36,410 nt of DNA from positions 1 through 36,410 of the IMG/VR virus record IMGVR_UViG_3300009009_000026. One strand, given 5' to 3'. The notes beneath the pieces are model-generated. The model made no database searches, was not told where the DNA came from, and saw only the letters and a program-made list of their open reading frames with translations. Below are positions 5,846-34,002 of the stretch, one piece after another. The translations under genes were made by a program, and so were the position numbers. Each line of letters opens with the position of its first letter. Position 1 is the first letter of the stretch. The DNA comes from a virus.

Positions 5846-8106
5846 TGGCACAAGAACAGCCTCTTAAAATAAGCGAAATTGTAAGTGCAATAAATGGAGC
5901 AGCTGATTCAATAGATTCAGAAGATCCTATCAAAGCAAAGAAAGCCGCTTTTATTCTCAATGACAATAAAATTCCAGAGAGTGAGTGGCAAGATTTAACA
6001 TGGGCTGTCAGAAATGCACGAAATATCGAAAATGATGATGAAACATTGAAAACAGCCGTTAGAATAAAAAACAAAGTATTCAATGAAGTTCAAAAAAATA
6101 CCTACACTATGGGTGCTTTCAAACCTTATGAAGTTAAGGGAACAGGGCCAACAAAAGCAGAAAGAATGCTTGGAACTTATATTCCTTCAAAGGATCTAAA
6201 AAATTATTTAATGAACCGAGGATATGAAACGCAGGAGGATCCATCAGGTAGAATTCTCATAAGAAAACCAAACGAACTGAAATGGTCAGAATTTAATCCA
6301 AAAGGTGAAGGTGCTCTTGATTTTGATGCAATGGATTTCATTGACAAGGCTCCTGATGTAGCTGAGGCAATATTGACAGCCGGAACTGTGGTCAATCCTT
6401 TGATTGGAATTCCGCTCCAAGCGGCTTATGGTGCCGGTTCGGAGGCTACGCGTCAATATGTATCACAGCAAGTTGGTGGACGGTTTAAAGGTGAATGGGA
6501 TGTTGCCGATATAGCTGTGGCTGGTGGACTATCCGGTTTATTAGGTGCTGGTGCAGACCTGGTGGGAGCGGTAGCAAAAAGAGCCGGTCCAGCAATGAAA
6601 GAAATAGCGAAGACAAAAGATGCAACGAGAAAGGCCGCTCCCTTAATGGAACAGGCCGGTGATATCCTTGGTATCAAATTTACCAAGGAAGAACTCGCAA
6701 AATCACCTGAGCAACGGAAATTATTCGATGCCGTTAATAGATCAAGTGAAAGTATCGTAGGATATTTCACTGGTGAATCGGCACAGCGCAAGATGATGGG
6801 TGATAGGCAAGAGGTACTTGATGCTGTCAAAGAAGCTATTCTTGAGGATATGTCTCAAAGGGTTTCGGGAATGTCTGCTGAAAAGCTCAAAAAGGCATCT
6901 GCTCAACGTTTGAAGTGGGAGGCTGGGAAAGATGTCCAAAAGCAAATAACAGATAATATTTCAGCAAAAAAGGAAGCATCACAATTCTTTTATGATCGAA
7001 TTTCAAAAATAATGGGAAAGAAAGATTTCGATGCTGATCCTGGTATTTTCTATACCAAAATGACTAAATTAAAAGAACTTGGAAAAGGATCAAATGAGGT
7101 TGATAAGGCTATCGATCCAGTCATTAAAAAATTCGATTCTTTGTTGCTAGAAGACGGAACCATTACAGCCGCCACGATCAAAAATATGCGATCTGATGCG
7201 TTATCTGCTTCAAGGGAAGCCATGCAGGCCGGTAACGGACAGAAATCAAGAATCAACGGTGAAATAGCAGATATTCTCAAAGAAATAGAAGATGATTCAA
7301 TTTCAAGAGCCATTACCAGATTTGAAAAAGGTGCTGAAAAAGAATTCAGAATCAATGCACAGGAGGCAGCAAAGTACGCTAATAAGAACATTGAGCCTGT
7401 GGCATCTGCTCTATTCCCACCTAATCGGAATATCCAGAAAATAGAACTCACAAACCAGATGAAAAAGGATCTTGAATCTGCTCGCAGGCTTTGGCGTGAG
7501 GCAAATCAAGACGCCACAATGGTATGGGAAAAGACTGGAGGTAAATGGAGCGCTGATCTTGGACCTAAATTACAAGAAATGAAAGGTGCACCAGCAGAGG
7601 AATTTTTAAAACGAGTTTCTCCAGATAAAGGAGACTACGAAAAATTAGTCAACATGAGAAAAAATTATCCAAAAATGTTTGCTCGCGCACAAAAAGCAAA
7701 CAAAATAGAGGAGGTTCAAGATATCCTCGGAAAGATCGCAGCTACCCAGGAGCGCGGCAAAGCGGAATGGTCAAAAACAGTTCAAGAATTGTTGAAATTG
7801 AGAAACGAGGAACTATCTGTAGTTCTCGGAAAAGACAGTCGTGAAAAGCTCAAGGCATTACAAACAGCATACAAGTATGCTCCAGAACTCATCAATGCAT
7901 CCGGTACCAAGATCAATGAAAATTTGATGACCGGTGCCTTAACGGCAGATAGTGTTGAGGCATATAAACGATGGCTTTTAAAAACAGCATATTCAGTGGG
8001 AAATGCTGAAAAACTTGCAAAAGCATTTTCGATGTACACAACACCAGTCAAGCAAACAATTAAAGGTGCTGGACAAGCATACATATCAAGAGAGGGAGAT
8101 CAATAA
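5845..8106 (+). CDS. Large internal virion / ejection protein
   Basis: The gene encodes 753 residues from an ATG overlapping the previous stop (TAATG). Residues about 170-205 (AEAILTAGTVVNPLIGIP onward) and about 225-247 (IAVAGGLSGLLGAGADLVGA) are hydrophobic, Gly/Ala-rich segments that could insert in a membrane. The remainder is long charged helix with many Lys, Glu and Gln. I looked for lytic transglycosylase or peptidase motifs and saw none. It is the largest of four consecutive low-complexity genes, like the biggest ejection protein of T7- and P22-like phages. AT-rich codon use matches the preceding gene. The role is inferred. Confidence 0.5.
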   Translation: MAQEQPLKISEIVSAINGAADSIDSEDPIKAKKAAFILNDNKIPESEWQDLTWAVRNARNIENDDETLKTAVRIKNKVFNEVQKNTYTMGAFKPYEVKGTGPTKAERMLGTYIPSKDLKNYLMNRGYETQEDPSGRILIRKPNELKWSEFNPKGEGALDFDAMDFIDKAPDVAEAILTAGTVVNPLIGIPLQAAYGAGSEATRQYVSQQVGGRFKGEWDVADIAVAGGLSGLLGAGADLVGAVAKRAGPAMKEIAKTKDATRKAAPLMEQAGDILGIKFTKEELAKSPEQRKLFDAVNRSSESIVGYFTGESAQRKMMGDRQEVLDAVKEAILEDMSQRVSGMSAEKLKKASAQRLKWEAGKDVQKQITDNISAKKEASQFFYDRISKIMGKKDFDADPGIFYTKMTKLKELGKGSNEVDKAIDPVIKKFDSLLLEDGTITAATIKNMRSDALSASREAMQAGNGQKSRINGEIADILKEIEDDSISRAITRFEKGAEKEFRINAQEAAKYANKNIEPVASALFPPNRNIQKIELTNQMKKDLESARRLWREANQDATMVWEKTGGKWSADLGPKLQEMKGAPAEEFLKRVSPDKGDYEKLVNMRKNYPKMFARAQKANKIEEVQDILGKIAATQERGKAEWSKTVQELLKLRNEELSVVLGKDSREKLKALQTAYKYAPELINASGTKINENLMTGALTADSVEAYKRWLLKTAYSVGNAEKLAKAFSMYTTPVKQTIKGAGQAYISREGDQ

Positions 8107-8855
8107 TGGCAAATCCAAGCGTAACATACACCTTTACCAACGGAACCACGGCAGACGGCACCCAGGTATCACAAAACTTCACCGACCTTATCAACGGACT
8201 GACCGATGGCACCAAATCACTGAATATCGATGCTATCACAGCAGCTGGTGCCGCAACTTTCAATGGCAACACCATCATTGGAAATTCCTCTGGTGATACC
8301 TCGACAGTCAATGCCACGATGTCGTTTGCTACAACTCCAAAAGTAGATATTATTTCGGAGAAGACATCTGGTGCCGGTGTAACTATCGATGGTGTTCTTT
8401 TGAAAGATAACACTATTACAGCAAGCGGTGGTCTTATCATAGGAAACGAAACTTTAAGTGTTTATGATGAAGGAACATGGTCACCAACAGTTGATTCGGT
8501 TTCAAATATTGCTTTTGGTTCTGCCATTACTTATGGTACAGCCACATTCACTAGGATTGGCAATACTGTATTTGCCCGATTAGAATCTTTTGAAGCAAGC
8601 AACATCACTATAACAGATGCAACAGCAAGAACGACAATCAGTTTGACAACTACAGATCTACCCGGATTTTCTTCACAAGAGCTTTATGGTAGTGCTTCAA
8701 TTATTGTAGCAACAGCGAGTCCATTCGAAAATCTTCCCGTTAGTATCGTAAATTCTAGTAATTTGATTCAGTTGAGAATCACTGTTGCAGGAACTGGTGC
8801 AGCTAATGGAGATGCAGTAAATATCAGAAGCATATTTATTCAATATAAAGTTTAA
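8106..8855 (+). CDS. Tail-fibre / receptor-binding-type virion protein
   Basis: The gene encodes 249 residues starting at an ATG that overlaps the previous stop. The N-terminal part (VTYTFTNGTTADGTQVSQNF) is a short anchor type seen in phage fibre proteins. The middle contains the beta-solenoid-like phrase GVTIDGVLLKDNTI and then SVYDEGTWSPTV, phrases I associate with fibre and appendage proteins. The C-terminal 120 residues are Ser/Thr-rich beta sandwich-like sequence. It is small for a full fibre, so it may be a head or tail appendage. It ends the structural run; the sugar cassette starts 71 bp later with its own candidate promoter. Confidence 0.6.
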   Translation: MANPSVTYTFTNGTTADGTQVSQNFTDLINGLTDGTKSLNIDAITAAGAATFNGNTIIGNSSGDTSTVNATMSFATTPKVDIISEKTSGAGVTIDGVLLKDNTITASGGLIIGNETLSVYDEGTWSPTVDSVSNIAFGSAITYGTATFTRIGNTVFARLESFEASNITITDATARTTISLTTTDLPGFSSQELYGSASIIVATASPFENLPVSIVNSSNLIQLRITVAGTGAANGDAVNIRSIFIQYKV

Positions 8856-8926: not shown

Positions 8927-9805
8927 ATGAATAAACTTGTTATCGTGACCGGTGCTACCGGCACTCTTGGTTCCCGAATCATGCAATACCACCTTGATAA
9001 CAATGATACGGTCATTGGGTTGTCGAGGTGTGACCACAAGATTGCACAGTTCAGCAAGAAATTCCCTGATGTCCATTGGTGCCTGGGTGATATCCGAAAC
9101 GATCTGCACAGCGTACTACCCAACAAGGCGCATATCGTGTATCACTGTGCGGCATTAAAGCATGTTGATATGGGAGAAAACTATCCACAGCAATATCATG
9201 ATGTGAACTACTCAGGAGCAATGAACGTATTCCATCATATCGATTGCGGTAAATTCGTGTTTTTCAGCACTGACAAGGCGGTTCTACCGATCAACTTCTA
9301 TGGCATGGCCAAGGCTCTTGCAGAAAAGCACCTGATAGCGATCAGAAAGGCTACAGGACGCAACATAAAGGTGTTCAGATGGGGTAACATTGTAGGGAGC
9401 CAGGGATCGGTTATCCACACGTTTATCCGGCAGCTGCTGTCACCGGATAGGACCGTTAAGATCACACATCCCGACATGACAAGGTTCTGGCTCAAGATAG
9501 AGGATGCTGTGCAGTTTGCAACAATGGACAGCCATGGTGTTGATGAGGTGCTCATTCACCCACTTATTAAGGCCGCCAAGATCACCGATTTTGTGGAGGC
9601 TATTGCTACTTGTCTGGCACTTCCCAACATGGAGGATTCCTACAAGATCGAATATACCGGGATCAGGCCGGGTGAAAAGATCCATGAGCATCTGCGATCG
9701 GAGCATGATTTTTGTATTCGCAGCGACACAGCAGCACAGTACACCAAATCAGAACTGATTGGCCTTGTCGGACCTACCGTTTCAAAATATCTTGCTGGAG
9801 AATGA
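8927..9805 (+). CDS. PseB/CapD-type UDP-N-acetylhexosamine 4,6-dehydratase (extended SDR)
   Basis: The gene encodes 292 residues of the extended short-chain dehydrogenase family. The Rossmann motif GATGTLG is at residues 9-15, STDKAV at 114-119 and the YxxxK pair at Tyr125/Lys129. Then come FRWGNIVGSQGSVI, THPDMTRFW and GIRPGEKIHE, the signature blocks of PseB, FlaA1 and CapD enzymes. These oxidise, dehydrate and (in PseB) C5-epimerise UDP-GlcNAc, the first step to pseudaminic acid. It is about 40 residues shorter than typical PseB. It leads a + strand cassette with a cytidylyltransferase, an aminotransferase and an acetyltransferase. Whether it is inverting or retaining cannot be told by eye. 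Confidence 0.8.
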   Translation: MNKLVIVTGATGTLGSRIMQYHLDNNDTVIGLSRCDHKIAQFSKKFPDVHWCLGDIRNDLHSVLPNKAHIVYHCAALKHVDMGENYPQQYHDVNYSGAMNVFHHIDCGKFVFFSTDKAVLPINFYGMAKALAEKHLIAIRKATGRNIKVFRWGNIVGSQGSVIHTFIRQLLSPDRTVKITHPDMTRFWLKIEDAVQFATMDSHGVDEVLIHPLIKAAKITDFVEAIATCLALPNMEDSYKIEYTGIRPGEKIHEHLRSEHDFCIRSDTAAQYTKSELIGLVGPTVSKYLAGE

Positions 9806-9806
9806 T

Positions 9807-10130
9807 ATGACAAATATGGAAATCATTTTGCTGATTGTCAGCCTTGGTATGTCTTTAACTACGTTCGTTTTAACTCTGTGGTACCGAAATCTTTCTAGGA
9901 AAGCAGAACTCAAGGATGATCTGATTGCCAGACAAGATGAGATGCTGGATCTCGCCAAAGAAAAGAATGTTCTTTTGACCAAGCAGCTGTATGAATCCGA
10001 CAAGAAAGCAAAGTTGTCTGGTGATGTTCTTGCTGTGCTCAACGACATGAAACAAGGTGGTGCAGTGTTTGAAGTAACTCGGATAGATCGTGGTGACATA
10101 TTTTTCCACAATGGGAGCCAGTATCGATGA
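9807..10130 (+). CDS. Small membrane-anchored coiled-coil protein
   Basis: I choose the ATG at 9807, which follows a GGAG site at 9797-9800 and lies one base after the previous stop, giving 107 residues. Residues about 4-23 (MEIILLIVSLGMSLTTFVLT) form one transmembrane segment, followed by a charged, helical 55-residue stretch and a short C-terminal beta-like tail. The stop overlaps the next start as ATGA. I do not recognise it. It lies inside the sugar cassette and may anchor the enzymes at the membrane, or be an unrelated lysis-type protein. Confidence 0.65.
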   Translation: MTNMEIILLIVSLGMSLTTFVLTLWYRNLSRKAELKDDLIARQDEMLDLAKEKNVLLTKQLYESDKKAKLSGDVLAVLNDMKQGGAVFEVTRIDRGDIFFHNGSQYR

Positions 10131-10861
10131 AGAAACTAAACAAACGTGTTGCCATTGCCATACAGTGTAGGCTGGCTTCATCGCGGTTCCCCAAGAAATC
10201 GATTGCTCCTCTGTCGAGCACAGGGATCAGCTGCATAACGTCACTTATAAAGAACTGCACCGTATGTGCAGATCATGTGGAAAACAAACATGATCCAAAC
10301 ATAGATGTCCAGTGTGACGTTTGGGTTCTAGTTCCCGACAATGAACTGGAGTTCTGGAATGAGTTTCTTGCTCACAAGCATGTCAAGGTGCTTGGAGGAT
10401 CCCCGACTAATGTGTTGTCGAGATACATTGATTTATGCCAGTACAAATATGACTACATCATGAGGCTGACAGCCGACTGTCCAAACGTGCCGAATCTGGC
10501 TATGAATAAAGCGATCTGGACCGCTATTTATCACGATCTGGACTACTGCTCAAATGTTTGGGAAAAATACCGCACATCAATCGATGGTCATGACATCGAG
10601 GTGATGTCGTTTGCTGCTCTGCAATGGTTATCAGCCAATGCCGAGACGATAGCGCACAAGGAGCATGTGACTATTGCAATCCGTGAAATGATGCCAAAGG
10701 CACTCAAAAAAGGGTGTCTCGTGACAAAGGAGGATTTGTCGCATATTAAACTGTGTGTTGACACACAGGAAGAACATTCAGCGGCATTCCAGCGTTTTGA
10801 AGCGGCATATCAAAAGCGCAAGGGAGCTATGGAGGCAGGTTTGTATGTACACGAATACTAA
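10127..10861 (+). CDS. SpsF-like cytidylyltransferase (CMP-sugar synthetase family)
   Basis: The gene encodes 244 residues. The N-terminal nucleotide-binding block RLASSRFPKK (15-24) corresponds to the RxxSxRxPxK loop of CMP-nonulosonate/CMP-Kdo synthetases and SpsF. RLTADCP (113-119) carries the metal-binding Asp117, and HDIEVMSF, KEHVTIAI and LCVDTQEE follow in the SpsF order. In this family the enzyme activates a sugar acid with CTP. Here the likely substrate is a nonulosonic acid, given the neighbouring PseB-like and distant NeuB-like genes. The start overlaps the previous stop (ATGA). SpsF proteins are less well characterised than PseF/NeuA, so substrate is inference. Confidence 0.75.
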   Translation: MKKLNKRVAIAIQCRLASSRFPKKSIAPLSSTGISCITSLIKNCTVCADHVENKHDPNIDVQCDVWVLVPDNELEFWNEFLAHKHVKVLGGSPTNVLSRYIDLCQYKYDYIMRLTADCPNVPNLAMNKAIWTAIYHDLDYCSNVWEKYRTSIDGHDIEVMSFAALQWLSANAETIAHKEHVTIAIREMMPKALKKGCLVTKEDLSHIKLCVDTQEEHSAAFQRFEAAYQKRKGAMEAGLYVHEY

Positions 10862-12059
10862 GATGTGGGATGATCGCGCCAAACTGTGCATTGCGCAGGG
10901 AGCACTAACCAACAGCAAACGTCCAGACACAGATGTTATGGGTGTCTTTCCTACTCATTTTGAGAGCGGCTATGGACCATATCTTTATACTGATAAGCGT
11001 GATCGTTATCTTGATTTTGTTTCTGGCCTTGGTGCCATAAACCTTGGCTATGGCAACGAGCAGTTGGAAAACGAGGTTGCCAAAGCGGCAAAGGGTGGAT
11101 GCCTGTCGGGTAGCACTATTCAAGAGATCATTACAGCAGAGAAAATCAAATCCACTTTTCACTGGGTAGATCGCGTCAAGTTTGTCAATGACGGTACGGA
11201 AGCCTGTATGGCAGCTATTCGCATGGCTCGCGCCTTTAACGGAAAAAATATTGTGCTGTGGGAGGGATATCACGGCTGGTATGATGAAGCGACAGCATTG
11301 AATGACAATGCCAAAGGCACACCATGTGGTCATAAGATAATAAATTTGAATGCTGTGAACTTGGATAGTGATTTAAAAAATGTATCTGCTATTATCCTTG
11401 AGCCAGTCATGCTCGATGATAGTCGAGAACGTATCGAATATTTAAAAAAGATTCGTTCAATATCTGATGGGACAGATATCGTTCTGATTTTCGACGAGGT
11501 TGTGACTGGCATGCGCTATCCCTCTCTTTCTGTCTCCAAACACTGGGGAATCTATCCTGACTTGTTATGCCTCGGTAAAGCCTGTGCCAATGGGTACAAA
11601 ATAGGCGCGGTAGCAGGTCGTTCGGATATTATGGACGGTGACTACTTTGTGTCAGGAACATACTTCGGACATATCCCTACGCTGAAGGCGACAGAGGCCT
11701 GTCTGCATCTGACCAAGCATGACAACAAATATGATGCCAAGGATTTGAACGAGAAGGCTTTGGATTTTAAGGAACGGTTCAACGGACTATCACCCTACAC
11801 TGTAAAGCTTGAAGGATGGGGAGCCAGGATGAACTGGGTTGGCTCGGATCTCAACCTTGCTCTTTTCAGGCAAACACTCATCGAGAACCGGATTTTCACG
11901 AAGAATACATTTTTCCTCAACCATGCGACAAAGCATCATATTGATGAATTGTTTTCAGTTTGCCAGTATGCGATAAAACATATCAATTCTGGATCAGCAG
12001 TTATGAAGGGACCAATGCCACGCAAGCCTGTGGCACAAATAGCAAGGGAGCGGCAATGA
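10845..12059 (+). CDS. Class III PLP-dependent aminotransferase (glutamate-1-semialdehyde aminomutase-like)
   Basis: The gene encodes 404 residues. The frame is open from 10755, but the ATG at 10845 follows GGAGG at 10831-10835, so I place the start there, overlapping the previous gene by 17 bp. Family blocks in order are NDGTEACMAAIRMAR, the aromatic PLP-stacking WEGYHGWYDE, IFDEVVTGMR with Asp217, the Schiff-base Lys245 in CLGKACANG, and GTYFGHIPTLKA. Such enzymes transfer an amino group to a carbonyl. In the PseB context it could aminate the 4-keto sugar, a role normally taken by a DegT-type PseC. Alternatively it aminates another position or substrate. Confidence 0.8.
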   Translation: MYTNTKMWDDRAKLCIAQGALTNSKRPDTDVMGVFPTHFESGYGPYLYTDKRDRYLDFVSGLGAINLGYGNEQLENEVAKAAKGGCLSGSTIQEIITAEKIKSTFHWVDRVKFVNDGTEACMAAIRMARAFNGKNIVLWEGYHGWYDEATALNDNAKGTPCGHKIINLNAVNLDSDLKNVSAIILEPVMLDDSRERIEYLKKIRSISDGTDIVLIFDEVVTGMRYPSLSVSKHWGIYPDLLCLGKACANGYKIGAVAGRSDIMDGDYFVSGTYFGHIPTLKATEACLHLTKHDNKYDAKDLNEKALDFKERFNGLSPYTVKLEGWGARMNWVGSDLNLALFRQTLIENRIFTKNTFFLNHATKHHIDELFSVCQYAIKHINSGSAVMKGPMPRKPVAQIARERQ

Positions 12060-12598
12060 TTAGTTTTGGATTTGGCGTAACTCTCAGCAGATTGCAGGAT
12101 AATTTAAAATTCCATTATAAAAAACAACGTAACATATATGGTATTTGGAAATGGTGCCGTCAATATGATCTGATAGATGATACCAGTCATTCAATTTGGT
12201 TTGAAAAACAGAGCAAAGATGCGAGTGTCTCCATGTACCAGATAAATTCTCCAGATGGTCATGTTGTTGGTGTTTGCGGATTGACAGATATCGATAAGCA
12301 CAACCAAAGGGCTGAATTTTCGCTATATACGTTCAATGACCAACAAAGCAGAGGATATGGTAAAGCAGCATTAAAAACATTGCTGTCGCATGGTTTCATG
12401 AACCATAACCTAAATGTCATATGGGGAGAAACCTTTGAAGGAAATCCAGCCTATGACATGTTTTTAAAACTTGGCATGAAGCACGAGGGAACCAGGCGTC
12501 AATTCTATTTCAAAGAAGGCAAGCATATCGATGCTCATTTGGTATCAATGACCAGGCATGAATTTATGGAGGCTCCATGGAAAACATCCCAACAGTAG
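12056..12598 (+). CDS. GNAT N-acetyltransferase (RimJ/PseH-like)
   Basis: Start ATG 12056 overlaps the previous stop (ATGA) after an AGGGAG site; the product has 180 residues. The acetyl-CoA pyrophosphate loop is QQSRGYGKA (96-104). GETFEGNPAYDMFLKLGMKHEGTRR and the C-terminal SMTRHEF are typical of RimJ/RimL and PseH proteins. PseH acetylates the 4-amino group of the UDP-sugar in pseudaminic acid synthesis, and the position directly after the aminotransferase fits such a role. It could instead acetylate a protein. The extra N-terminal 40 residues are basic and aromatic. Confidence 0.75.
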   Translation: MISFGFGVTLSRLQDNLKFHYKKQRNIYGIWKWCRQYDLIDDTSHSIWFEKQSKDASVSMYQINSPDGHVVGVCGLTDIDKHNQRAEFSLYTFNDQQSRGYGKAALKTLLSHGFMNHNLNVIWGETFEGNPAYDMFLKLGMKHEGTRRQFYFKEGKHIDAHLVSMTRHEFMEAPWKTSQQ

Positions 12599-14058: not shown

Positions 14059-14272
14059 TGTACTGGAAAATGGTGGGCTGGCACTTCTCACGGTAGATTT
14101 CGGGAAAGTTGCCGAGGAGATCAAGGATCTTGATTGGAATGAAAACAAAGAACTTGGGATCAGGATGCTGGAACTGGTCATGGAAGTGATCGCATCGCTG
14201 AACTATGCAAAGAATCCGGTTGTCAGCATGGTGCTGCCTATGGCTGGAAAGATCTTGAAGGCTCTTGCCTAA
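14027..14272 (+). CDS. Small helical hypothetical protein
   Basis: The gene encodes 81 residues from an ATG with an AAGGAG site (14014-14020 region). The sequence is acidic in the first half (EEIKDLDWNENKE) and ends in a hydrophobic helix (NPVVSMVLPMAGKILKALA). No family is recognised. Its stop overlaps the stop of the opposing Fis-like gene by 4 bp, so the + and - transcription units converge exactly here without a terminator that I can see. Confidence 0.55.
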   Translation: MGIDETKKLIDVLENGGLALLTVDFGKVAEEIKDLDWNENKELGIRMLELVMEVIASLNYAKNPVVSMVLPMAGKILKALA

Positions 14273-14529
14273 TAGTCTCTCTTTCCAGGGTTACCGCGTC
14301 CACGTGATTCAGCTGTGGTTGGAAAATCACCATGGATCCAGTCGCAGATAGTCCGGTAGCTGATTGCTAGTTCTTCAGCTGCCCTGGTCAGGTTACCTTC
14401 ATGGTAGTTCACCACTTTATCCACAAACGCGAATTTAATTTCCTTTAGCGTCAATCCTCGCGGCATCTTTTCCAAAAGAAACCTCATTTTTGCTTTGGGT
14501 GTCAGCCGTATCTTCTTTTTCTTTTTCAT
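14269..14529 (-). CDS. Fis-type helix-turn-helix DNA-binding protein
   Basis: The gene encodes 86 residues. The segment EGNLTRAAEELAISYRTICDWI (about 44-65) matches the HTH_8 domain found at the C-terminus of Fis and NtrC regulators, where the second helix reads bases. The N-terminus is a Lys-rich tail. ATG 14529 has an AGGA site; ATG 14466 would also keep the whole HTH and would reduce the 95-bp overlap with the upstream gene. As the last gene of the leftward replication operon it may be a regulator of phage genes. Confidence 0.6.
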   Translation of the reverse strand: MKKKKKIRLTPKAKMRFLLEKMPRGLTLKEIKFAFVDKVVNYHEGNLTRAAEELAISYRTICDWIHGDFPTTAESRGRGNPGKRDY

Positions 14530-14644
14530 ACTGTTCGATCCTGTTCAAAATATTTACCTCAGCATACTTGTCAGACCTACCGCAATAGAAGCACGGTCCA
14601 CGGTCTGCGCAGATATCACACTGGTTGTTGTTTGCGTAGTTCAT
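14435..14644 (-). CDS. Small Cys-rich probable zinc-binding protein
   Basis: I place the start at ATG 14644 (69 residues), because the upstream part of the frame is the antisense phase of recT and a GGTGG site precedes 14644. The N-terminal 25 residues contain CDICADRGPCFYCG, four or five cysteines arranged as two CxxC-like pairs, suggesting one structural zinc. The C-terminus is charged and low in complexity. It starts inside the end of the RecT gene and overlaps the Fis-like gene. The function is unknown. Confidence 0.5.
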   Translation of the reverse strand: MNYANNNQCDICADRGPCFYCGRSDKYAEVNILNRIEQYEKEKEDTADTQSKNEVSFGKDAARIDAKGN

Positions 14645-15527
14645 CGCGTCCCACCATCTCTTGATATTTGCGTTCGTACTCCTCGGTTTTGCCCTGCAAG
14701 AACAGCATACCGTCCAAGGTTTTCTCGTTCTCAATCACCTGTACCAAATTGGCCTTTAGTTTGCCCAGTTTGACAAACCATTCATCTTGCCGGGTGTTGA
14801 GAAAATCAAGAACATCTGACCTAACCTGCTCCAGGGAGGCTGACTGTTCAACTGATGTGTGCTGTGGAGCCGAAATTTCAACTCTGGGAGCCTGAACCGG
14901 CTTGGGTGGTAGCTGACTACCCTTTTCGATCTCATCGCTGGTGTAGATGCCTGTGAGAGATTCGGGGAATGCCCACCTCATGACGTTGGCAATTGCGCAC
15001 TTTTCGAGCATGAGATAGGGACTGACCTTCCAGTTGCCCATCAGGTCACCCGATTTCATGGTTTTGGCAAACTCCCAAAACCTCGCCTTATAGGTCATTT
15101 TGCCTTGTCCCTTACGTTGAACCCAAGCAATGGCCGTGAGGGATTTGCGCTCCTTGCCTGTAACAAGATCCAGATAGGTATCGGGGACAGTATCAACACC
15201 GAAATCCTCCAGTTCACCGGTTCTCTGTGCCATCTGGATGAAAAACTGATAGGCAAACACCGTTGTCCCTTTGGGTTCTTCCTTCTGCTTATCCTTATTC
15301 CAGGCATTGTGGACCAGGAGGTAAACCTGATTGAGCCTCGGATCTGCACCTGTCAGCTGGCACTTGTTGATAAATTCGACGATCTGAGATTTATCCAGGG
15401 TAGGATGCTGTCTGACCAGATTGCTGAGGTAGTTTTGATCCATGGCTCGTTTGATCTGATCCTTCGGCATATCAGCCATAGCCATCAGTTCGTTGACTGT
15501 ATTATCGATGTTTGCAACTTCATTCAT
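14616..15527 (-). CDS. RecT/Redbeta (Bet)-family single-strand annealing protein
   Basis: The gene encodes 303 residues. Diagnostic phrases are TGADPRLNQVYLLVHN, AYQFFIQMAQRTGEL and LMLEKCAIANVMRWAFP followed by LTGIYTSDEI, the conserved core of phage recombination protein Bet/RecT. The protein anneals complementary single strands, normally fed by a partner 5'-3' exonuclease; no exonuclease gene is visible in the window. The C-terminal 100 residues are a charged helix likely to bind partners. An AAAGGA ribosome site and a candidate promoter (15557-15585) lie just upstream. It may promote circularisation or recombination of the genome. Confidence 0.88.
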   Translation of the reverse strand: MNEVANIDNTVNELMAMADMPKDQIKRAMDQNYLSNLVRQHPTLDKSQIVEFINKCQLTGADPRLNQVYLLVHNAWNKDKQKEEPKGTTVFAYQFFIQMAQRTGELEDFGVDTVPDTYLDLVTGKERKSLTAIAWVQRKGQGKMTYKARFWEFAKTMKSGDLMGNWKVSPYLMLEKCAIANVMRWAFPESLTGIYTSDEIEKGSQLPPKPVQAPRVEISAPQHTSVEQSASLEQVRSDVLDFLNTRQDEWFVKLGKLKANLVQVIENEKTLDGMLFLQGKTEEYERKYQEMVGRDELRKQQPV

Positions 15528-15556
15528 ACGTTTTCCTTTCTACGTTATATGCACAA

Positions 15557-15585
15557 TCTATATATTACAGATGGGAAGAAATCAA
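15557..15585 (-). promoter_or_regulatory. Candidate promoter upstream of the annealing-protein gene
   Basis: Reading the minus strand, TTGATT (15585-15580) and TATAGA (15562-15557) are spaced by 17 bp, 30 bp before the RecT start. It would allow recT to be expressed separately from the replication genes upstream. Match by eye only. Confidence 0.35.
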
Positions 15586-15588
15586 CTA

Positions 15589-16131
15589 TTAAAATGGGAT
15601 TTCATCTATCTGCCTCTGTATTTTACTATCGAGAAGTGATTTGACAAGATCGTTTGCCTTTCCTGTTAAAGCAAGATGGTTTTCATATTTCTTGTTATGC
15701 ATATATGCTTTTGCGAATTCTCTAAATTGTGAGTTGAATGTTTGCAATTCATCTTCCTCAATATTACATATCTGAGGCCATGGACGATATTTTGTTACAA
15801 TTTCCCAATCATCAGGTCCAAACCACTTTTCTGCACCAACCGGATTTGGCCAACCGAATTTTCCGATTGCCTCAACTACCCTCACTGTAAGTAGTCTAGC
15901 TTTTTCTTCGTCGTCCGGTTCTTTGGCAGTAAATCCAAGCCGTGATCTGATTTCAACCACTGATGGGAATTTGAACTCCTCTACAAACTGCAAAAGAACT
16001 TTGTTAACATTGTCAATACCCAATGGCACTAAAGCATTGAAATAGATGTCATGCAGTTGTGTTGACATGTTCTTTCCTGTAAGATCGGCTAGCATTACCA
16101 GTGTACTTGTGAATTGATCTTTGCTATTCAT
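15589..16131 (-). CDS. Probable helicase-loader-like replication protein
   Basis: The gene encodes 180 residues with an AAAGGAACGCG ribosome site. The N-terminal half is helical and includes the phrase FKFPSVVEIRSRLGF, which resembles phage proteins that load or regulate the replicative helicase (lambda P/DnaC-loader-like small proteins). The gene overlaps the upstream initiator by 8 bp, the same O-P type order as in lambdoid phages. No ATPase motif is present. The call rests mainly on gene order, so it could also be another replication accessory protein. Confidence 0.45.
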   Translation of the reverse strand: MNSKDQFTSTLVMLADLTGKNMSTQLHDIYFNALVPLGIDNVNKVLLQFVEEFKFPSVVEIRSRLGFTAKEPDDEEKARLLTVRVVEAIGKFGWPNPVGAEKWFGPDDWEIVTKYRPWPQICNIEEDELQTFNSQFREFAKAYMHNKKYENHLALTGKANDLVKSLLDSKIQRQIDEIPF

Positions 16132-17164
16132 CGCGTTCCTTTCTGTTTCTTTCGAGAAGGGTTTCTAAGAGGATGCTATTCGCAGTAGCGTCCTCAACTT
16201 TTTTGGCATCCTTAGAAAATATGAATTTATTCTTTGTACATTCAGTATGTAGTTTTTCACAATCCATCAACAAATATCTAAAAGCGTGGGCATTATTTAA
16301 ATAAAACATTTTGTTATGCGTTAAGTAGAACCTAACAAGTTTTATTGCCTCATCAGTGGTCTTTAAATTTATAATTAGATTTTTAGCTTCTTTACACACT
16401 CTGGGAGTAATTAGTGGTTCGACCGAATATCTTTCAAAATATGCTTGGGTGTATGCTTCAATGACTGGGTTGTGATTTATCACTGGCTTTTCATTCCCAG
16501 AGACATTTTTCATGGCTGATTTTTTCTTGGGTTTCTTTGGTTCATCATTAATGAGCATCAGAGAATTTGAAACCTTGGGGGTTTCGTCGCCAGACGAAAT
16601 TTGCCTCCCTTTAAATTCTTCTTTCACTTCTTTTTCTTCTTTATTTCTTTCTTCTATATAATAAGAACACACGGTACCCTCCCAGTGCTGTCCAAGCACT
16701 GTCCAAGCACTGTCTAACCCGGTCAAATTATCATGATTATTCTGCAATGATTCTGTATCGTTATCTGTTTGGGACTGTCTAACCACTGTCGAAGCACTGT
16801 CTAAGGACTGTCTAACCTGTTTTTGGGGTAGTTCGCCTGAAAATGTATCATACTGGCACACTTCATAGATCAAACCTTCCTTATTGTCGGTGTCAGCTGC
16901 CGAGGTTTTGATATGTCCAAGGCTACGCAAAACACCGATCAAGTGGCGTATGCGCTTTAAATACATATTCGGGAATATCTCATTTTGGATGTCCACAGCC
17001 TTGATCTTGATCTGACCTCGCTTGAGATCCCCAAAATCATCCCATGCTGCTTGCTCTGCCAGAAAGACATAAAGCATCCAGAGTTCAATATTTAATTTTC
17101 TATCATTGGAAAAAGAATTGCGCAGGTTTCGGTGTAATTTCACCCATCCGATTTGATTTGTCAT
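16124..17164 (-). CDS. Replication initiator (lambda O / replisome-organiser-like)
   Basis: The gene encodes 346 residues with an AAAGGGACAG ribosome site. The N-terminus (GWVKLHRNLRNS, then a winged-helix-like region to about residue 105) resembles phage replisome-organiser proteins. A central low-complexity linker (about 115-215) is encoded by DNA that carries seven 11-bp repeats, so the protein shows two related 11-residue phrases, LDSASTVVRQS and LDSAWTVLGQH. The C-terminal domain (about 230-330) is helical. In lambda the origin likewise lies within gene O and is bound by O at iterons. The helicase-loader-like gene follows, overlapping by 8 bp. Confidence 0.65.
   Translation of the reverse strand: MTNQIGWVKLHRNLRNSFSNDRKLNIELWMLYVFLAEQAAWDDFGDLKRGQIKIKAVDIQNEIFPNMYLKRIRHLIGVLRSLGHIKTSAADTDNKEGLIYEVCQYDTFSGELPQKQVRQSLDSASTVVRQSQTDNDTESLQNNHDNLTGLDSAWTVLGQHWEGTVCSYYIEERNKEEKEVKEEFKGRQISSGDETPKVSNSLMLINDEPKKPKKKSAMKNVSGNEKPVINHNPVIEAYTQAYFERYSVEPLITPRVCKEAKNLIINLKTTDEAIKLVRFYLTHNKMFYLNNAHAFRYLLMDCEKLHTECTKNKFIFSKDAKKVEDATANSILLETLLERNRKERDE
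16685..16815 (-). repeat. Seven 11-bp iterons, probable replication origin inside the initiator gene
   Basis: On the + strand the unit is GCACTGTCYAA. Three copies are in direct tandem at 16685-16717 (first one GTGCTGTCCAA) and four at 16772-16815 (GGACTGTCTAA, CCACTGTCGAA, GCACTGTCTAA, GGACTGTCTAA). A 54-bp mostly AT-rich spacer separates them. The core ACTGTCYAA is nearly invariant, while 11 bp is about one helical turn. Eleven is not a multiple of three, so codon-level pressure does not explain the conservation. The position inside an initiator gene matches lambda-type origins. Confidence 0.7.
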
Positions 17165-18877: not shown

Positions 18878-20059
18878 ATGAAACATTTACTGCATTTATT
18901 GGCCTTATTTTCAATGCTTTCGTTAACCTCTTGCTCCACGGTGGACGTTCCTCAAGATAAACCCATTATCACTGTCATTCCGAAGGATGCCGTTATTTCT
19001 TCAAGTGGAAAAATGTACAGGACAGGTTTGAAAATCCCGTTGGGGTTTAAACCAAAAAACATCATCAAGGCTGATCTTGGCGAGGATCTACCGGCAACAT
19101 TCGACTGGAGAACCAAAGTTCAGCTGTCGCCAATTGAGAACCAAGGCGGGTGCGGAAGCTGCTGGGCATTCTCCACAGCAGCAACATTTCAGGATGTAAA
19201 GCGCATTTTCGGTGAAACTGAGGATCTCTCAGAACAGTATTTGCTGTCATGTGCCAATCCATCGGAATGGTCCTGCAACGGAGGATTCTTCGCGCACGAT
19301 GCTCACAAATCACCCAGAGGTGGAGTGCTTGCAAGTGAGTATCCCTACACTGGGACAGACTCAGCATGTAAATCAGGACTCAACTACCGTTGGAAACTCA
19401 CTTCATGGGCATACCTTCCCGGTGGTGAGCAGCCAAGCGTCAACGAAATTAAGGCTGCCATTTACAAATACGGTCCTGTTTCGGTTGGCGTGGCTGCCGA
19501 CAGTGAATTCAGCAACTATACAGGTGGAATTTTTCGCGGATCGGGTTCAACTCAGCTTAACCATGCGGTGAATATAGTTGGATGGGGATCTGACCACTGG
19601 ATCATGCGCAATTCGTGGGGACAATGGGGTGAAGGCGGCTACATGCGCATCAAATTCGGTGCCAATGGTATCGGTGCATGGGCAAACTTTATCGTCTACA
19701 ACAAAGAGCCAGATCCTCCAGGACCGGGACCGGATCCAGATCCCAATCCTAACCCAGATCCAGAGCCATGTTCTCCACAGCCTTATGCTGACACCGGCTA
19801 CGGTGATTCGATCAAAGTGAGGGTTGGTGCGCAGGTGTTTCTTGGAACTAAAGCGCGTCCTGGCACATACTACTATTGGACAGCCGAACCCGATTTTGAC
19901 AACGGAGGCAAACCTGTCGAAGCCAAGATCAAGTATCGTCCTAGAGTAACCAAACGGTTGACGGTGCATGCTGTCACCCAGTGCGGTGAAGCTACAGATT
20001 CAGTGACAGTTCACGCAATGCAGGGATACAGATCCCAAGCAGTGCCAGAACTGGATTGA
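18878..20059 (+). CDS. Papain-family (C1A) cysteine protease lipoprotein with C-terminal Ig-like domain
   Basis: The gene encodes 393 residues behind an excellent AGGGAGGTG ribosome site. A lipoprotein signal ends at lipobox LTSC (Cys19). The peptidase has Gln89, Cys95 in GCGSCWAFS, His229 in LNHAVNIVGWG and Asn245 in RNSWGQWG, plus the SCNGG disulfide motif, so all papain catalytic residues are intact. A Pro/Asp/Asn-rich linker (about 278-298) leads to a beta-sandwich-like domain with two Cys. The pro-segment is short (about 20-70). It would act on the membrane surface or in the periplasm. It follows the endolysin and ends in a strong terminator. Confidence 0.88.
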   Translation: MKHLLHLLALFSMLSLTSCSTVDVPQDKPIITVIPKDAVISSSGKMYRTGLKIPLGFKPKNIIKADLGEDLPATFDWRTKVQLSPIENQGGCGSCWAFSTAATFQDVKRIFGETEDLSEQYLLSCANPSEWSCNGGFFAHDAHKSPRGGVLASEYPYTGTDSACKSGLNYRWKLTSWAYLPGGEQPSVNEIKAAIYKYGPVSVGVAADSEFSNYTGGIFRGSGSTQLNHAVNIVGWGSDHWIMRNSWGQWGEGGYMRIKFGANGIGAWANFIVYNKEPDPPGPGPDPDPNPNPDPEPCSPQPYADTGYGDSIKVRVGAQVFLGTKARPGTYYYWTAEPDFDNGGKPVEAKIKYRPRVTKRLTVHAVTQCGEATDSVTVHAMQGYRSQAVPELD

Positions 20060-24715: not shown

Positions 24716-25967
24716 TAGCAGCATTAATGACAGGATATATAATTCATACCTCGAAACCACACGAGATGAGGAGCTACAGTTTGCGCAGCGTGTGGCTTTT
24801 CCCGACAACATGCAGATTGATGCATTCGGCAGGATCAGAACCTCGCTCCCATCTGTCGTGTTTGACAACTATGAGATCCAAGGCAAGAAAACGCTGGTGT
24901 GGAATGAGAAGTTGACAGGTGCAGCTACGATTGCTCATGTTGCAAACCAGGCAGCATGTCAGTTCTCGACATCAGCAGCAAGCGGTGACAAGGCTACCAG
25001 ATCCAGCAAGAAACTGTCCCTTTATACTCCAGGTACATCGATCCTTTCGTTTTTAACTGGAGTAATGGGAGTAGGTGCAGCCGGATCATCGCAGCGCATT
25101 GGCCTTTTCAGTTCACTCAATGGGGTATTTTTCGAGCAGAAAGACCGGGCAATGGGTGTTGTCATTCGGTCAAATACCACCGGTTCAGTTGTTGATAACA
25201 GGATCGAGCAGGCTGATTGGAACATCGACAAATTCGATGGCACAGGACCATCGGGGATCGATCTTGATTTCACAAAGACACAGATTTTTATGATGGACCT
25301 TGAATGGCTTGGTGTAGGTCGGGTTCGGTGCGGTTTTGTGCATGAAGGAAAGGCATTGATCGCGCATGAGTTCTATCATAATAACAGGCTGACAACGGTC
25401 TACATGAAGACGCCAATATTGCCTGTCACATACGAGGTTGAGAACACAGCAGCATCGACAGCACTCACCGATTTCAGGCAGATCTGCTCCTCGGTCATTG
25501 TCGAGGGACAAGAGACAGTCTCAAAGATCCCTAGATCTGTCAGCAATGGTGTGACAGCCAGGGCAACGACAACAACCACCGGCATTCCATTGATATCGAT
25601 CAAGCTCCAGACTGCCGTAGTAGGGCAAGCTATGCTCAAACCAACAGCTGAAACGTTGATGTCGATTGGTAACCGTGACCATGTGTTTGAGTTCCATTAC
25701 GGTGGAACCCTTGAATCCGCATCATGGGCAAACGTCCCTGGTATCGGCATGGTTGATATCGCTGCAACTCATATAACCGGCAGCACCAAGATATCGACAG
25801 TCTACACAGCATCAACACAAAGAGGTTCATTAGAGGATCTGATTAAGAACCTATTATGGGTCGGTGGGGATCTCGATGGAAACGGTGAATCTGTGTCTAT
25901 TGTTGCAAGATCTATCGGTGGTGGTGGATCTGCTTTGGCTGGACTAGACTACGAAGAATTTGCATAG
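24708..25967 (+). CDS. Conserved virion protein of unknown role
   Basis: I choose ATG 24708 (419 residues), since ATG 24699 would fall in the ribosome site AAGGAT. The protein contains ADWNIDKFDGTGPSGIDLDF, QIFMMDLEWLGVGRVRCGFV and HEFYHNNRL, phrases of a family I remember from several tailed phages and cyanophages as a predicted structural or appendage protein. It is mostly beta strand. Placed between small and large terminase, which is unusual for a fibre. A 16-residue reading frame follows. Confidence 0.6.
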   Translation: MTNSSINDRIYNSYLETTRDEELQFAQRVAFPDNMQIDAFGRIRTSLPSVVFDNYEIQGKKTLVWNEKLTGAATIAHVANQAACQFSTSAASGDKATRSSKKLSLYTPGTSILSFLTGVMGVGAAGSSQRIGLFSSLNGVFFEQKDRAMGVVIRSNTTGSVVDNRIEQADWNIDKFDGTGPSGIDLDFTKTQIFMMDLEWLGVGRVRCGFVHEGKALIAHEFYHNNRLTTVYMKTPILPVTYEVENTAASTALTDFRQICSSVIVEGQETVSKIPRSVSNGVTARATTTTTGIPLISIKLQTAVVGQAMLKPTAETLMSIGNRDHVFEFHYGGTLESASWANVPGIGMVDIAATHITGSTKISTVYTASTQRGSLEDLIKNLLWVGGDLDGNGESVSIVARSIGGGGSALAGLDYEEFA

Positions 25968-25980
25968 AAAGGAGGATGCC

Positions 25981-26031
25981 ATGGGATGTAAAGGCGGTAA
26001 ACCAAAAATGCCCCCCAAGCCTAAGAAGTAG
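25981..26031 (+). CDS. 16-residue Lys/Pro/Gly mini-protein
   Basis: ATG 25981 follows GAAAGGAGG with ideal spacing and encodes MGCKGGKPKMPPKPKK before a TAG. It is below usual gene-finding limits. The strong ribosome site and unusual composition suggest a translated peptide. A Cys in position 3 after Gly2 could allow acylation if the host had such a system; this is speculative. Confidence 0.45.
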   Translation: MGCKGGKPKMPPKPKK

Positions 26032-26033
26032 GC

Positions 26034-26065
26034 AAAAAAATAGCCGGATTAATAACCCGGCTATT
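26034..26065 (-). terminator. Intrinsic terminator reading leftward
   Basis: AATAGCCGG (26039-26047) and CCGGCTATT (26057-26065) form a perfect 9-bp stem. The T tract (seven T on the minus strand, 26040-26034) lies on the left, so it would stop minus-strand transcripts. There is no minus-strand gene to the right, so it may block antisense RNA or serve as a hairpin in the + transcript. Confidence 0.6.
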
Positions 26066-26129
26066 CACGGAAACAATCCCTTTAGGAGTAAAGGTTCAAT
26101 AACGCGTATGAAAGGAAAATAGAAGTTCG

Positions 26130-26876
26130 ATGAGGATAATAGCAGACCTTTCTGTCAATTTTCAAGGGCTAGATGATATTCTTGACACGATCAAGGCGGT
26201 TCAAGCCGACTATATCAAACTGCAATGGTATTCGGAAAAGGATCTGTACGGCACTGGATCCGAGGCAACAAAACTGGATCCCGAATGGCTCCCACAGATC
26301 CAGCATGCTTGCAATGCGTCCAACAAAAGATTGCTTTGCACGGTGTTTGATCCTGATAAGGTCCGAATCATCGACAAATATGTGTTTATCCACAAGGTAG
26401 CATCCAGTGAGATCACCGACAGGGAGCTATTGAAACAGATTGCACTGTGTCGCAAGCAGGTGATCGTGTCAACCGGAGGAGCCACTAGGGAGCAGATGAT
26501 GACAGCCAAAGCCATACTTCATGGCCTCCAGGTTGTCTGGCTCGCATGTGATGTGGAATACCCGGCCAAGCGGCACAATATCCGCAAGATGCTGCAACTC
26601 AAAAACTGGTTTCCAACAGATGGGATCGGCTATTCAGATCACAGCCTCGACATCGAATCCTTTCCGATCATCTGTGCGCATTACAACGTTGGGTTCTATG
26701 AGAAACATGTCAAACCTACGCTGGATCATCCCAGTTATGAAAAGCATGCTCTGACCGTGACTGAGTTCAACGAGATGTTCGATGCCATGGCTGGCAAGGC
26801 TCCCAAGTTTGTCCGAAACCCACACCAGAGGGTTCTCGACAAGGTTCTGAACAAGTGGGTGCGACCGCGTGTCTGA
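26130..26876 (+). CDS. NeuB/PseI-like nonulosonic acid synthase, minimal form
   Basis: The gene encodes 248 residues. Family motifs in order are KLQ (30-32), KVASSEITDRELL (89-101), STGGAT (114-119), ECD-like LACDVEYP, GYSDH (167-171) and EKH (191-193). His171 and His193 match the metal-binding residues of NeuB, which condenses PEP with an aminosugar to form a nine-carbon acid. It is about 100 residues shorter than NeuB/PseI and lacks the C-terminal antifreeze-like SAF domain that contributes to the active site. It is 14 kb from the other sugar genes and overlaps the terminase start by 8 bp. Confidence 0.82.
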   Translation: MRIIADLSVNFQGLDDILDTIKAVQADYIKLQWYSEKDLYGTGSEATKLDPEWLPQIQHACNASNKRLLCTVFDPDKVRIIDKYVFIHKVASSEITDRELLKQIALCRKQVIVSTGGATREQMMTAKAILHGLQVVWLACDVEYPAKRHNIRKMLQLKNWFPTDGIGYSDHSLDIESFPIICAHYNVGFYEKHVKPTLDHPSYEKHALTVTEFNEMFDAMAGKAPKFVRNPHQRVLDKVLNKWVRPRV

Positions 26877-32553: not shown

Positions 32554-33477
32554 ATGGCAGTTTCAGTAGATCAGCTAACAGCGATCACCCAACGGTATAT
32601 TGCACCCAAAATTTATGACAACATCTTCGATTCGAATCCACTTCTAAAGAGAATGCTGGCCTCCGGTCAGTACAAATCTGTCAGTGGTGGAACATCGATC
32701 GATTTACCTTTGAACTACGCCCAAACGACAGCAAATGGCTGGTATTCAGGCGCAGATTCCCTTGATACATCTGAGAATGAGCAGCTGACGGTTGCTCGCT
32801 ATGATTGGAAATCTCTGTTTGCAGGGATCACAATCACAGAGGAAGATGAACTCAAGAACGGTGGATCAGCTGGCGTTCTCAAACTTTTGGCCTCCAAGGC
32901 ACAGATTGCTGAGAAAACCATCAAGGATGCACTTGGTACTGGTCTTTACTCTGACGGAACCACAGCAAAATCGATCATCGGTTTGCGTGATATTGTTGCA
33001 ACCGATCAGACGGTCGGAGGCATAGCGCAGGCAACCAACTCGTGGTGGAGTGGGATTTGTGATACAACAACTAGTACGCTGACAATTGCAGCGATGAACA
33101 CAGTGTTTGAGAATGCCTCGATTGACAGCGAGAAACCTACCGTTGCCGTTGGTACCAGAACCAACTACACCCGGTACTATAACTTGCTTCAGCCACAGCA
33201 AAGATTCACAGACAGCGAGACAGCAAAAGGCGGGTTCGTGAACCTCATGTTCAATAGCGTACCTTTCATTTCTGATTCTCATTGTCCAAGCCAGCACCTG
33301 TTTTTCCTCAACGAAAAACACCTGTGGCTGTGCTACCACCCTGAGAGAAACTTCTCGACTGAGCCATTCCAAAAGCCTTTGAATGCTCAAGTTAAAGTGA
33401 GCAGGATCTTGTGGATGGGAGCCTTTGGATCGAGCAACAACCGTCTCCACGGCAAGATGTCTGGGCTGACCGCTTAA
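32554..33477 (+). CDS. Major capsid protein (HK97 fold)
   Basis: The gene encodes 307 residues with a strong AAGGAGAG ribosome site. PKIYDNIFDSNPLLKRM, the SGGTSIDLPLNYAQ beta region, ADSLDTSENEQLTVARYDW and TITEEDELKN correspond to the N-arm and E-loop of HK97-type capsid proteins. IAEKTIKDALGTGLYSDGT begins the spine helix and P-domain. The C-terminal half has the typical NTVFENASIDSEKPTVAVG phrase. It forms the icosahedral shell. It ends in a terminator, which would boost its relative transcript level. Confidence 0.88.
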   Translation: MAVSVDQLTAITQRYIAPKIYDNIFDSNPLLKRMLASGQYKSVSGGTSIDLPLNYAQTTANGWYSGADSLDTSENEQLTVARYDWKSLFAGITITEEDELKNGGSAGVLKLLASKAQIAEKTIKDALGTGLYSDGTTAKSIIGLRDIVATDQTVGGIAQATNSWWSGICDTTTSTLTIAAMNTVFENASIDSEKPTVAVGTRTNYTRYYNLLQPQQRFTDSETAKGGFVNLMFNSVPFISDSHCPSQHLFFLNEKHLWLCYHPERNFSTEPFQKPLNAQVKVSRILWMGAFGSSNNRLHGKMSGLTA

Positions 33478-33537: not shown

Positions 33538-34002
33538 ATGGCTTTTTATAGTGATACCCCGATTCTGTTTGGTGGTCTTTCCGGTGTTACTGCAACTCCT
33601 GGATCGAAAGATCCTGAGCTTGGCACACGAGTAAATTATGCTGGAAACGAGTACCTTTATGTTTATAATGCAGCAACAACTGCTGTACCGATTGGCTATG
33701 CTGTAACTCCACTTGCTGGAACCACTGGCTTTAGCTGCACGATCTCGACAACCGCTCAGATCGATGTTCCTATGGGTGTTGTGAAGAATGCAACCTTGAG
33801 CGCAGCATGCTACGGTTGGGTTCAAACCAGAGGTTATTGCAACCTGCATGTGAGTGCAGCTGTAACAGCTGGCGCACCGATGCAGCTTGGAGCCAATGGT
33901 CTGTGGGTTTCCGGTGTAACAGGTCCATTTTTTGCGAAATTGCTTTCGACTGTTTCGGCAGCAACTAACGTAAGCGGTTTGGCTTACATTTCTTGTCAAT
34001 AG
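33538..34002 (+). CDS. Capsid decoration / head-fibre-like protein
   Basis: The gene encodes 154 residues with an AAGGAGAG ribosome site. It is small, Ser/Thr/Ala-rich and all-beta, with NEYLYVYNAATTAVPIGYAV and YGWVQTRGYCNLHVSAAVTA phrases that I associate with phage capsid decoration proteins. It follows the major capsid gene and precedes the Maf-like glycosyltransferase gene by only 13 bp. With many Ser/Thr residues it is a plausible glycosylation target; this is inference. Confidence 0.65.
   Translation: MAFYSDTPILFGGLSGVTATPGSKDPELGTRVNYAGNEYLYVYNAATTAVPIGYAVTPLAGTTGFSCTISTTAQIDVPMGVVKNATLSAACYGWVQTRGYCNLHVSAAVTAGAPMQLGANGLWVSGVTGPFFAKLLSTVSAATNVSGLAYISCQ

Follow-up and report, generated by a model that had tools for sequence, protein, structure and literature searches.

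Why should a phage carry the genes for a nonulosonic acid, a kind of sugar that Maf transferases place on surface serine and threonine residues of bacterial flagellin (PMC11339370)? The question is raised by IMG/VR virus record IMGVR_UViG_3300009009_000026, a phage contig that we analyzed in its entirety (36,410 bases; hereafter the window) and that encodes a terminase, a portal, a major capsid protein (MCP), an SU10-type adaptor and an amidase. In related phages, the gene truncated at the right end adjoins the one near the left end, so that the window appears to be a near-complete, circularly permuted genome. It holds a sugar cassette at positions 8927-12598 and, elsewhere, genes for a NeuB-family synthase and a Maf-type transferase. 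We propose that this phage family makes a CMP-nonulosonate late in infection with the assistance of its host and attaches this sugar by O-glycosylation to its own virion, most likely to the capsid cement protein; we put the probability of this reading at roughly 0.6.

A first-pass annotation of the window, made from its letters and a list of its open reading frames (ORFs), had named six sugar genes. Homology confirms all six as PseB-like, SpsF-like, class III aminotransferase, GNAT, NeuB and Maf/DUF115:

8927-9805, plus strand: PseB-like UDP-HexNAc 4,6-dehydratase, 292 aa (Polysacc_synt_2, 1.8e-56)
9807-10130, plus strand: small protein of ~107 aa with no assigned role, between PseB and SpsF
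10127-10861, plus strand: SpsF-like CMP-sugar cytidylyltransferase, 244 aa (CTP_transf_3, 0.004 with the single sequence alone)
10863-12059, plus strand: class III (GSAM-like) pyridoxal phosphate (PLP) aminotransferase (AT3), 398 aa (Aminotran_3, 3e-29)
12056-12598, plus strand: PseH-like GNAT acetyltransferase, 180 aa counted from the ATGA overlap (NCBIfam PseH, 1.6e-15)
26130-26876, plus strand: NeuB-family synthase, 248 aa, overlapping the terminase gene (NeuB, 1e-29, above the Pfam cut-off)
34016-35047, plus strand: Maf-type (DUF115/MptE-like) putative nonulosonate transferase, 343 aa, GTG start (MptE-like, PF01973, 1.2e-18, over the cut-off)

The four cassette enzymes had been described as lying in ATGA-coupled order. 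Such overlaps exist at 10127-10130 and 12056-12059, but PseB and the next gene, like SpsF and the aminotransferase, are one base apart, and the order itself is broken by the small gene at 9807-10130. The product of this gene has no match in a Pfam search and has relatives in two other phages, G005 and G007; it occupies the slot that in most relatives is taken by a short GFO/IDH/MocA oxidoreductase.

Judging from their conserved active-site residues, the sugar enzymes look active; we take the roles of the conserved PseB, AT3, NeuB and SpsF residues to be those familiar from their families. A profile of the PseB-like protein has as its top match in the PDB the UDP-GlcNAc C6 dehydratase 2gn4 (4.1e-54), and the catalytic residues are kept (TDK in 19/19 sequences; Tyr in 18/19 and Lys in 19/19 of the YxxxK motif). 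For the SpsF-like protein, a profile built from four phages matches the cytidylyltransferase 6oew at 2.2e-22, which is firmer than the weak single-sequence Pfam match, and the N-terminal nucleotide-binding signature of the family is kept in 18-19 of 19 records, with Q13, R15, R20, P22 and K24 in all 19. All AT3 proteins compared but that of G024 (19 of 20) retain the PLP residues Asp211 and Lys239, and NeuB residues K30, K89, S114, H171 and H193, among them the lysines of the PEP site and two metal histidines, are kept in 24 of 24. The best PDB match of the NeuB family profile (which contains two bacterial sequences) is the pseudaminic acid synthase 8h2c. The NeuB of the window is short and lacks the C-terminal SAF (antifreeze-like) domain; many relatives, G010 for one, show a SAF-like tail. 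In profile searches, which the first-pass annotation had put forward as a check, the NeuB and MptE-like matches exceed their Pfam cut-offs, but the PseB-like dehydratase (155.3 bits against TIGR03589; equivalog cut-off 407.75) and the GNAT, whose best NCBIfam match is PseH (57.5 bits; cut-off 93.1), fall below those of NCBIfam.

We gathered relatives of the window by scanning for NeuB, SpsF and Maf, the most distant viral relatives having 25% (NeuB), 27% (SpsF) and, among those kept, 48% (Maf) identity. With the Maf profile, 148 viral contigs were found, and 80 of them were kept; synteny around Maf was counted in 70 of these 80 loci, leaving out 10 that had been fetched before. Seventeen genomes of 34.7-39.7 kb, the window included, were judged near-complete on length and gene order. 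All six sugar genes are present in 14 of the 17, a recurrence that is more than chance, and the GNAT is present in 16. In G027, whose cassette sits at the contig end, there is no match to PseB. All detected sugar genes lie on the MCP strand in 16/17 genomes, G017 being the exception. Protein distances of the sugar genes track those of the large terminase subunit (TerL), portal and MCP (Mantel r = 0.31-0.80, all p <0.03), pointing to a long shared history rather than recent cargo; this co-inheritance, together with the shared gene order of the near-complete genomes, leads us to reject recent cargo or misassembly. G024 lacks PseB, SpsF, GNAT and NeuB, has lost the PLP Lys and Asp of its AT3, and keeps Maf. 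Losing the pathway genes and the PLP residues together is a coherent loss, which supports our proposal. The gene system is real, conserved and inherited.

The target of the transferase is suggested by its neighbors. Four further genes bear on this point:

32554-33477, plus strand: major capsid protein, for context (phrog_9953, 4.3e-57)
33538-34002, plus strand: capsid cement/decoration protein, candidate acceptor (AlphaFold2 and Foldseek)
26869-29154, plus strand: terminase large subunit with intein, for context
8106-8855, plus strand: S/T-rich tail-fiber-like gene, second candidate acceptor, directly upstream of the cassette (26.9% Ser+Thr)

An AlphaFold2 model of the Maf-type protein (pLDDT 75.3) has as its top fold match the Magnetospirillum Maf 5mu5 (Z 20.0 over 250 residues, root-mean-square deviation 3.9), followed by the archaeal MptE/HPPK structure 8sd5 (Z 14.3) and, after two SteA structures, by sialyltransferases such as CstII and ST8SiaIII (Z 8-9); of the viral look-alikes that have names, most carry the annotation "MptE-like". 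The gene next to it had been called a capsid decoration gene, and the structural model agrees. The protein is predicted to be a capsid cement protein (model pLDDT 76.8, low over the first 23 residues), its best Foldseek matches being a Pam3 capsid chain, the phi29 head-fiber base gp8.5, and capsid chains of T1, TW1 and Sf11 (E = 1.1e-5 to 9.1e-4 for the Pam3, T1, TW1 and Sf11 chains). Its match to Pfam Phage_cement (0.019) is under the cut-off. Maf is preceded by the MCP gene in 59 of 59 loci with enough sequence. Immediately before it stands the cement gene in 64 of 65; the one exception, L125, has its cement gene in an overlapping open frame. The cement protein seems to evolve on its own, as its distances correlate weakly with those of the MCP (r = 0.17, p = 0.10). 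In 26 of 30 testable Maf loci, NeuB and TerL are no more than 1.5 kb apart, and 18 of the 20 Maf-bearing records of at least 26 kb contain NeuB; one of these records, G017, came through the NeuB scan itself, so that 17/19 is the fairer count. Given the order MCP-cement-Maf, the position of NeuB beside the terminase, the shared strand with the MCP and the long association with core genes, a virion target is the most economical explanation. The earlier suggestion of a sugar-coated virion is upheld to that extent; the position of the Maf gene favors the head as the target, but sequence alone cannot separate head, tail and host surface.

In the pathway that we propose, PseB would yield a UDP-4-keto-6-deoxy sugar that is aminated and then acetylated by the GNAT, NeuB would condense the freed hexose with phosphoenolpyruvate, and SpsF would turn the product into a CMP-sugar. 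The Maf-type enzyme would then attach this sugar to Ser/Thr residues on the virion, its most likely acceptor being the cement protein encoded directly upstream. A PseC-type 4-amination and a PseG-type release of UDP would be supplied by the host, or the amination would fall to the class III enzyme. The host most likely makes a nonulosonate already, so that the phage would boost and redirect the supply late in infection. We infer the order of steps, the late expression and the host's contribution, and the benefit may be shielding or adsorption. The first-pass idea is right in the main, except that the pathway seems to rely on the host; the cement protein is our best guess for the acceptor.

Several observations weigh against this proposal. 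It had been thought that only PseG was missing and that amination was covered. However, DegT/PseC (PF01041) is found in 0/16 phage records, nor does a DegT profile made here find any, which leads us to reject a pathway complete apart from PseG; as for the class III aminotransferase, it falls outside the PseC (DegT) family and is found next to DegT in bacteria. A profile of 16 bacterial PseG-like ORFs finds no PseG-like gene in the phage ORFs, though a distant hydrolase could escape it. No NCBIfam equivalog cut-off is reached by the sugar enzymes, so that a nonulosonate-type gene set with a Maf-type transferase is supported, but an identification of the sugar as pseudaminic or legionaminic acid is not. 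G007 has no NeuB, and G024 has Maf without the pathway, where the transferase presumably can persist with a host donor or in some other use. The phage Maf, at 343 aa, is about half as long as 5mu5 (632-666 residues), and the sequence match is weak (2.7e-4). Ser+Thr content of the cement protein (19.5%) is not above that of the MCP (19.2%) and does not separate the two as a guide to the acceptor. Lastly, the cassette adjoins the tail-fiber gene, not Maf, and lies on the reversed strand in G017.

To look for a role of AT3, we examined 23 bacterial loci, namely L045-L047 and 20 Omnitrophota neighborhoods (L225-L244) picked from 54 with an SpsF match among 193 genomes; L048, L049, L050 and the viral L053 were left out of the count. 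AT3 is present in 13 of the 23, and an AKR or GFO oxidoreductase is found in all 13 and in 0 of the 10 without AT3 (Fisher 8.7e-7, which is too optimistic as the genomes are related). No oxidoreductase was detected with the AT3 of L053 or of L048 (where AT3 is on the opposite strand), and counting these two makes the pairing 13/15. DegT stands beside AT3 in 13/13 bacterial AT3 loci, which rules out AT3 as the usual bacterial replacement for PseC; in the phages, AT3 could itself do the amination in place of PseC. Accompanying PseC and pairing with an oxidoreductase fits the conversion of a hydroxyl to an amine, hinting that AT3 and AKR/GFO form an extra amination module of nonulosonate clusters, mostly in Omnitrophota, of which we found no description in the literature searched. 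Amino groups of this kind are known from the 8-amino nonulosonate of Flexibacter maritimus lipopolysaccharide and the Kdo8N of Shewanella (PMC3210612). Among the 17 near-complete phage genomes, a short GFO/IDH/MocA oxidoreductase gene directly precedes SpsF in 13 and is found in none of G007, G024, G027 and the window. Its presence hints at an extra amino group on the phage sugar, an idea that we keep as a hypothesis since the window is without it. A more specific version of our proposal, that the cement protein is coated with an aminated (for example 8-amino) nonulosonate by way of the phage oxidoreductase-aminotransferase pair and a dedicated CMP-synthetase built onto a host pathway, is tentative, and we would sooner bet against it. 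If it is true, a Maf-flagellin system has been moved onto a virus shell.

Among the alternatives, the enzymes might alter host polysaccharide or flagella rather than the virion, giving a superinfection block or a masking of released progeny. We consider this unlikely. Superinfection blocks are usually early or lysogenic, the transferase always follows the MCP and cement genes on the head-gene strand, and its nearest fold is a protein-modifying Maf. Altering the host surface would nevertheless suit a cassette that adjoins a tail-fiber gene, and the absence of PseC and PseG would imply a host already producing such sugars. There is also a precedent in the prophage genes epaA and epaB of Acinetobacter baumannii, which resemble the present system in being phage genes that act on nonulosonic acid. 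Unlike here, they epimerize the pseudaminic acid of the host capsule, and the abstract of that study describes no synthesis pathway or Maf (PMC12053666).

Alternatively, the virion is glycosylated with the tail fiber as acceptor, which we judge distinctly improbable. The tail-fiber-like protein has the highest Ser+Thr content of the 14 proteins measured, and its gene precedes the cassette in most genomes. However, the transferase gene is linked to the cement and MCP genes, not to the fiber, and the fiber is conserved in relatives at its N-terminus only, whereas Maf is conserved throughout.

It is very unlikely that the genes yield another CMP-activated acid or are unrelated metabolic cargo. 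We know of no characterized pathway that a SAF-less NeuB with a class III aminotransferase would fit, and the oxidoreductase of 13/17 genomes also speaks for this possibility; against it, the gene set and active sites are conserved and co-inherited, and the bacterial homologs sit in clusters with PseB, DegT, PseG-like and NeuB genes. Least credible of all is that the Maf-type protein is a phage DNA modifier or HPPK-like kinase unrelated to the sugar genes. In favor of this, MptE/HPPK 8sd5 is its second fold match, and G024 (L157, L158), in which the sugar genes are absent, encodes a Tet/JBP oxygenase and an FkbM methyltransferase a short way upstream of TerL. Against it, the fold match to Maf scores clearly better, NeuB accompanies Maf in the 18/20 records mentioned above, and Tet_JBP is found in 1/17 genomes only, which leads us to reject DNA hypermodification.

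As in the Maf systems that O-glycosylate flagellin with pseudaminic or legionaminic acid in Campylobacter, Aeromonas, Clostridium and Magnetospirillum, there are in these phages PseB-, PseH- and PseI-like and cytidylyltransferase genes and a Maf fold, with the transferase gene beside that of a self-assembling structural protein and presumably acting in the cytoplasm before assembly, where flagellin glycosylation by Maf takes place (PMC4065374). Unlike those systems, the present one is phage-borne, has no PseC or PseG gene, belongs to a clade whose NeuB lacks the SAF domain, and would have the capsid cement or another virion protein as its acceptor. The sps legionaminic pathway of Bacillus subtilis likewise comprises a UDP-GlcNAc dehydratase, an acetyltransferase, the NeuB-family SpsE and SpsF, the last of which is put at the end of the CMP-legionaminic pathway; unlike the phages, it also needs SpsC and SpsG, which have no phage counterpart (PMC7439481); the phages have a class III aminotransferase. 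Similar in content are the nonulosonate clusters of Omnitrophota and Dormibacterota, with PseB, SpsF, class III aminotransferase, GNAT and NeuB (L047 also GFO); these clusters hold an AKR or GFO oxidoreductase and, unlike the phages, add DegT and often a PseG-like gene.

Phage-encoded transferases that act on capsid or tail proteins have a parallel in mycobacteriophages Che8, Corndog and Myrna. To our knowledge, these phages use other transferases and encode no nonulosonate pathway. Glycosylation of their capsid and tail proteins is on record (via PMC12363180, PMC12619734), and the lysis module of Stenotrophomonas phage DLP4 includes an ORF with a NeuB domain, for which the role is given as unclear (PMC6469090). 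The search listings for open-license PubMed Central literature show no account of virions glycosylated by a phage-encoded nonulosonate system. Among 50,697 cultured phage records, Maf and SpsF have 0 matches; the NeuB of the window finds one weak match and a bacterial NeuB query finds three. The closest bacterial SpsF relatives of the family point to no host. A 60.7 kb virus record without Maf (L053) carries the class III aminotransferase, SpsF and a NeuB with a weak SAF match, indicating that phage nonulosonate genes extend beyond this family.

If our proposal is correct, sialic-acid-like virion glycosylation is a core inherited trait of a phage lineage that is large in the environment, with 148 contigs in one scan, and Maf glycosylation reaches beyond flagellin. 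It would suggest what the proteins annotated as "MptE-like" in uncultured phages do and what part the class III aminotransferase-oxidoreductase module plays in bacterial nonulosonate clusters, and it would make a transferase-acceptor pair, a SAF-less NeuB and a compact Maf available for enzymology. It would also raise the question of why phages sugar-coat their shells.

Some smaller observations concern the cassette and its surroundings. In two relatives, zinc-finger/HNH-like ORFs lie between SpsF and AT3 (G031, 25688-26269; G027, 1438-1911), by eye apparently homing endonucleases. Small ORFs between AT3 and GNAT were considered as acyl carrier proteins and rejected, since by eye they look like unrelated short coiled sequences.

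The terminase intein region of the window contains, in a different frame, an HNH_3 homing endonuclease ORF (28305-28925, 206 aa; Pfam 1.7e-18), across which the intein frame stays open. The same nested HNH/intein arrangement occurs in the distant G010 (L036; terminase 14073-16349, HNH 15494-16120). Between the two, the HNH frame is 49% identical, the intein frame 32% and the third frame 24%, the last having 22 and 30 stops. Synonymous codon shuffles of the HNH ORF left the intein frame open in 0/2000 cases for the window and 87/2000 for G010. The terminase of L068 (672-3062) has a different intein, by eye near the ATP-binding P-loop and in the terminase frame, and the terminases of G005 and G007 are of intein-free length. 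Finally, positions 18878-20059 of the window encode a cysteine protease of the papain family (C1; Pfam 9.3e-48), an unusual gene in a phage; relatives have kept it.

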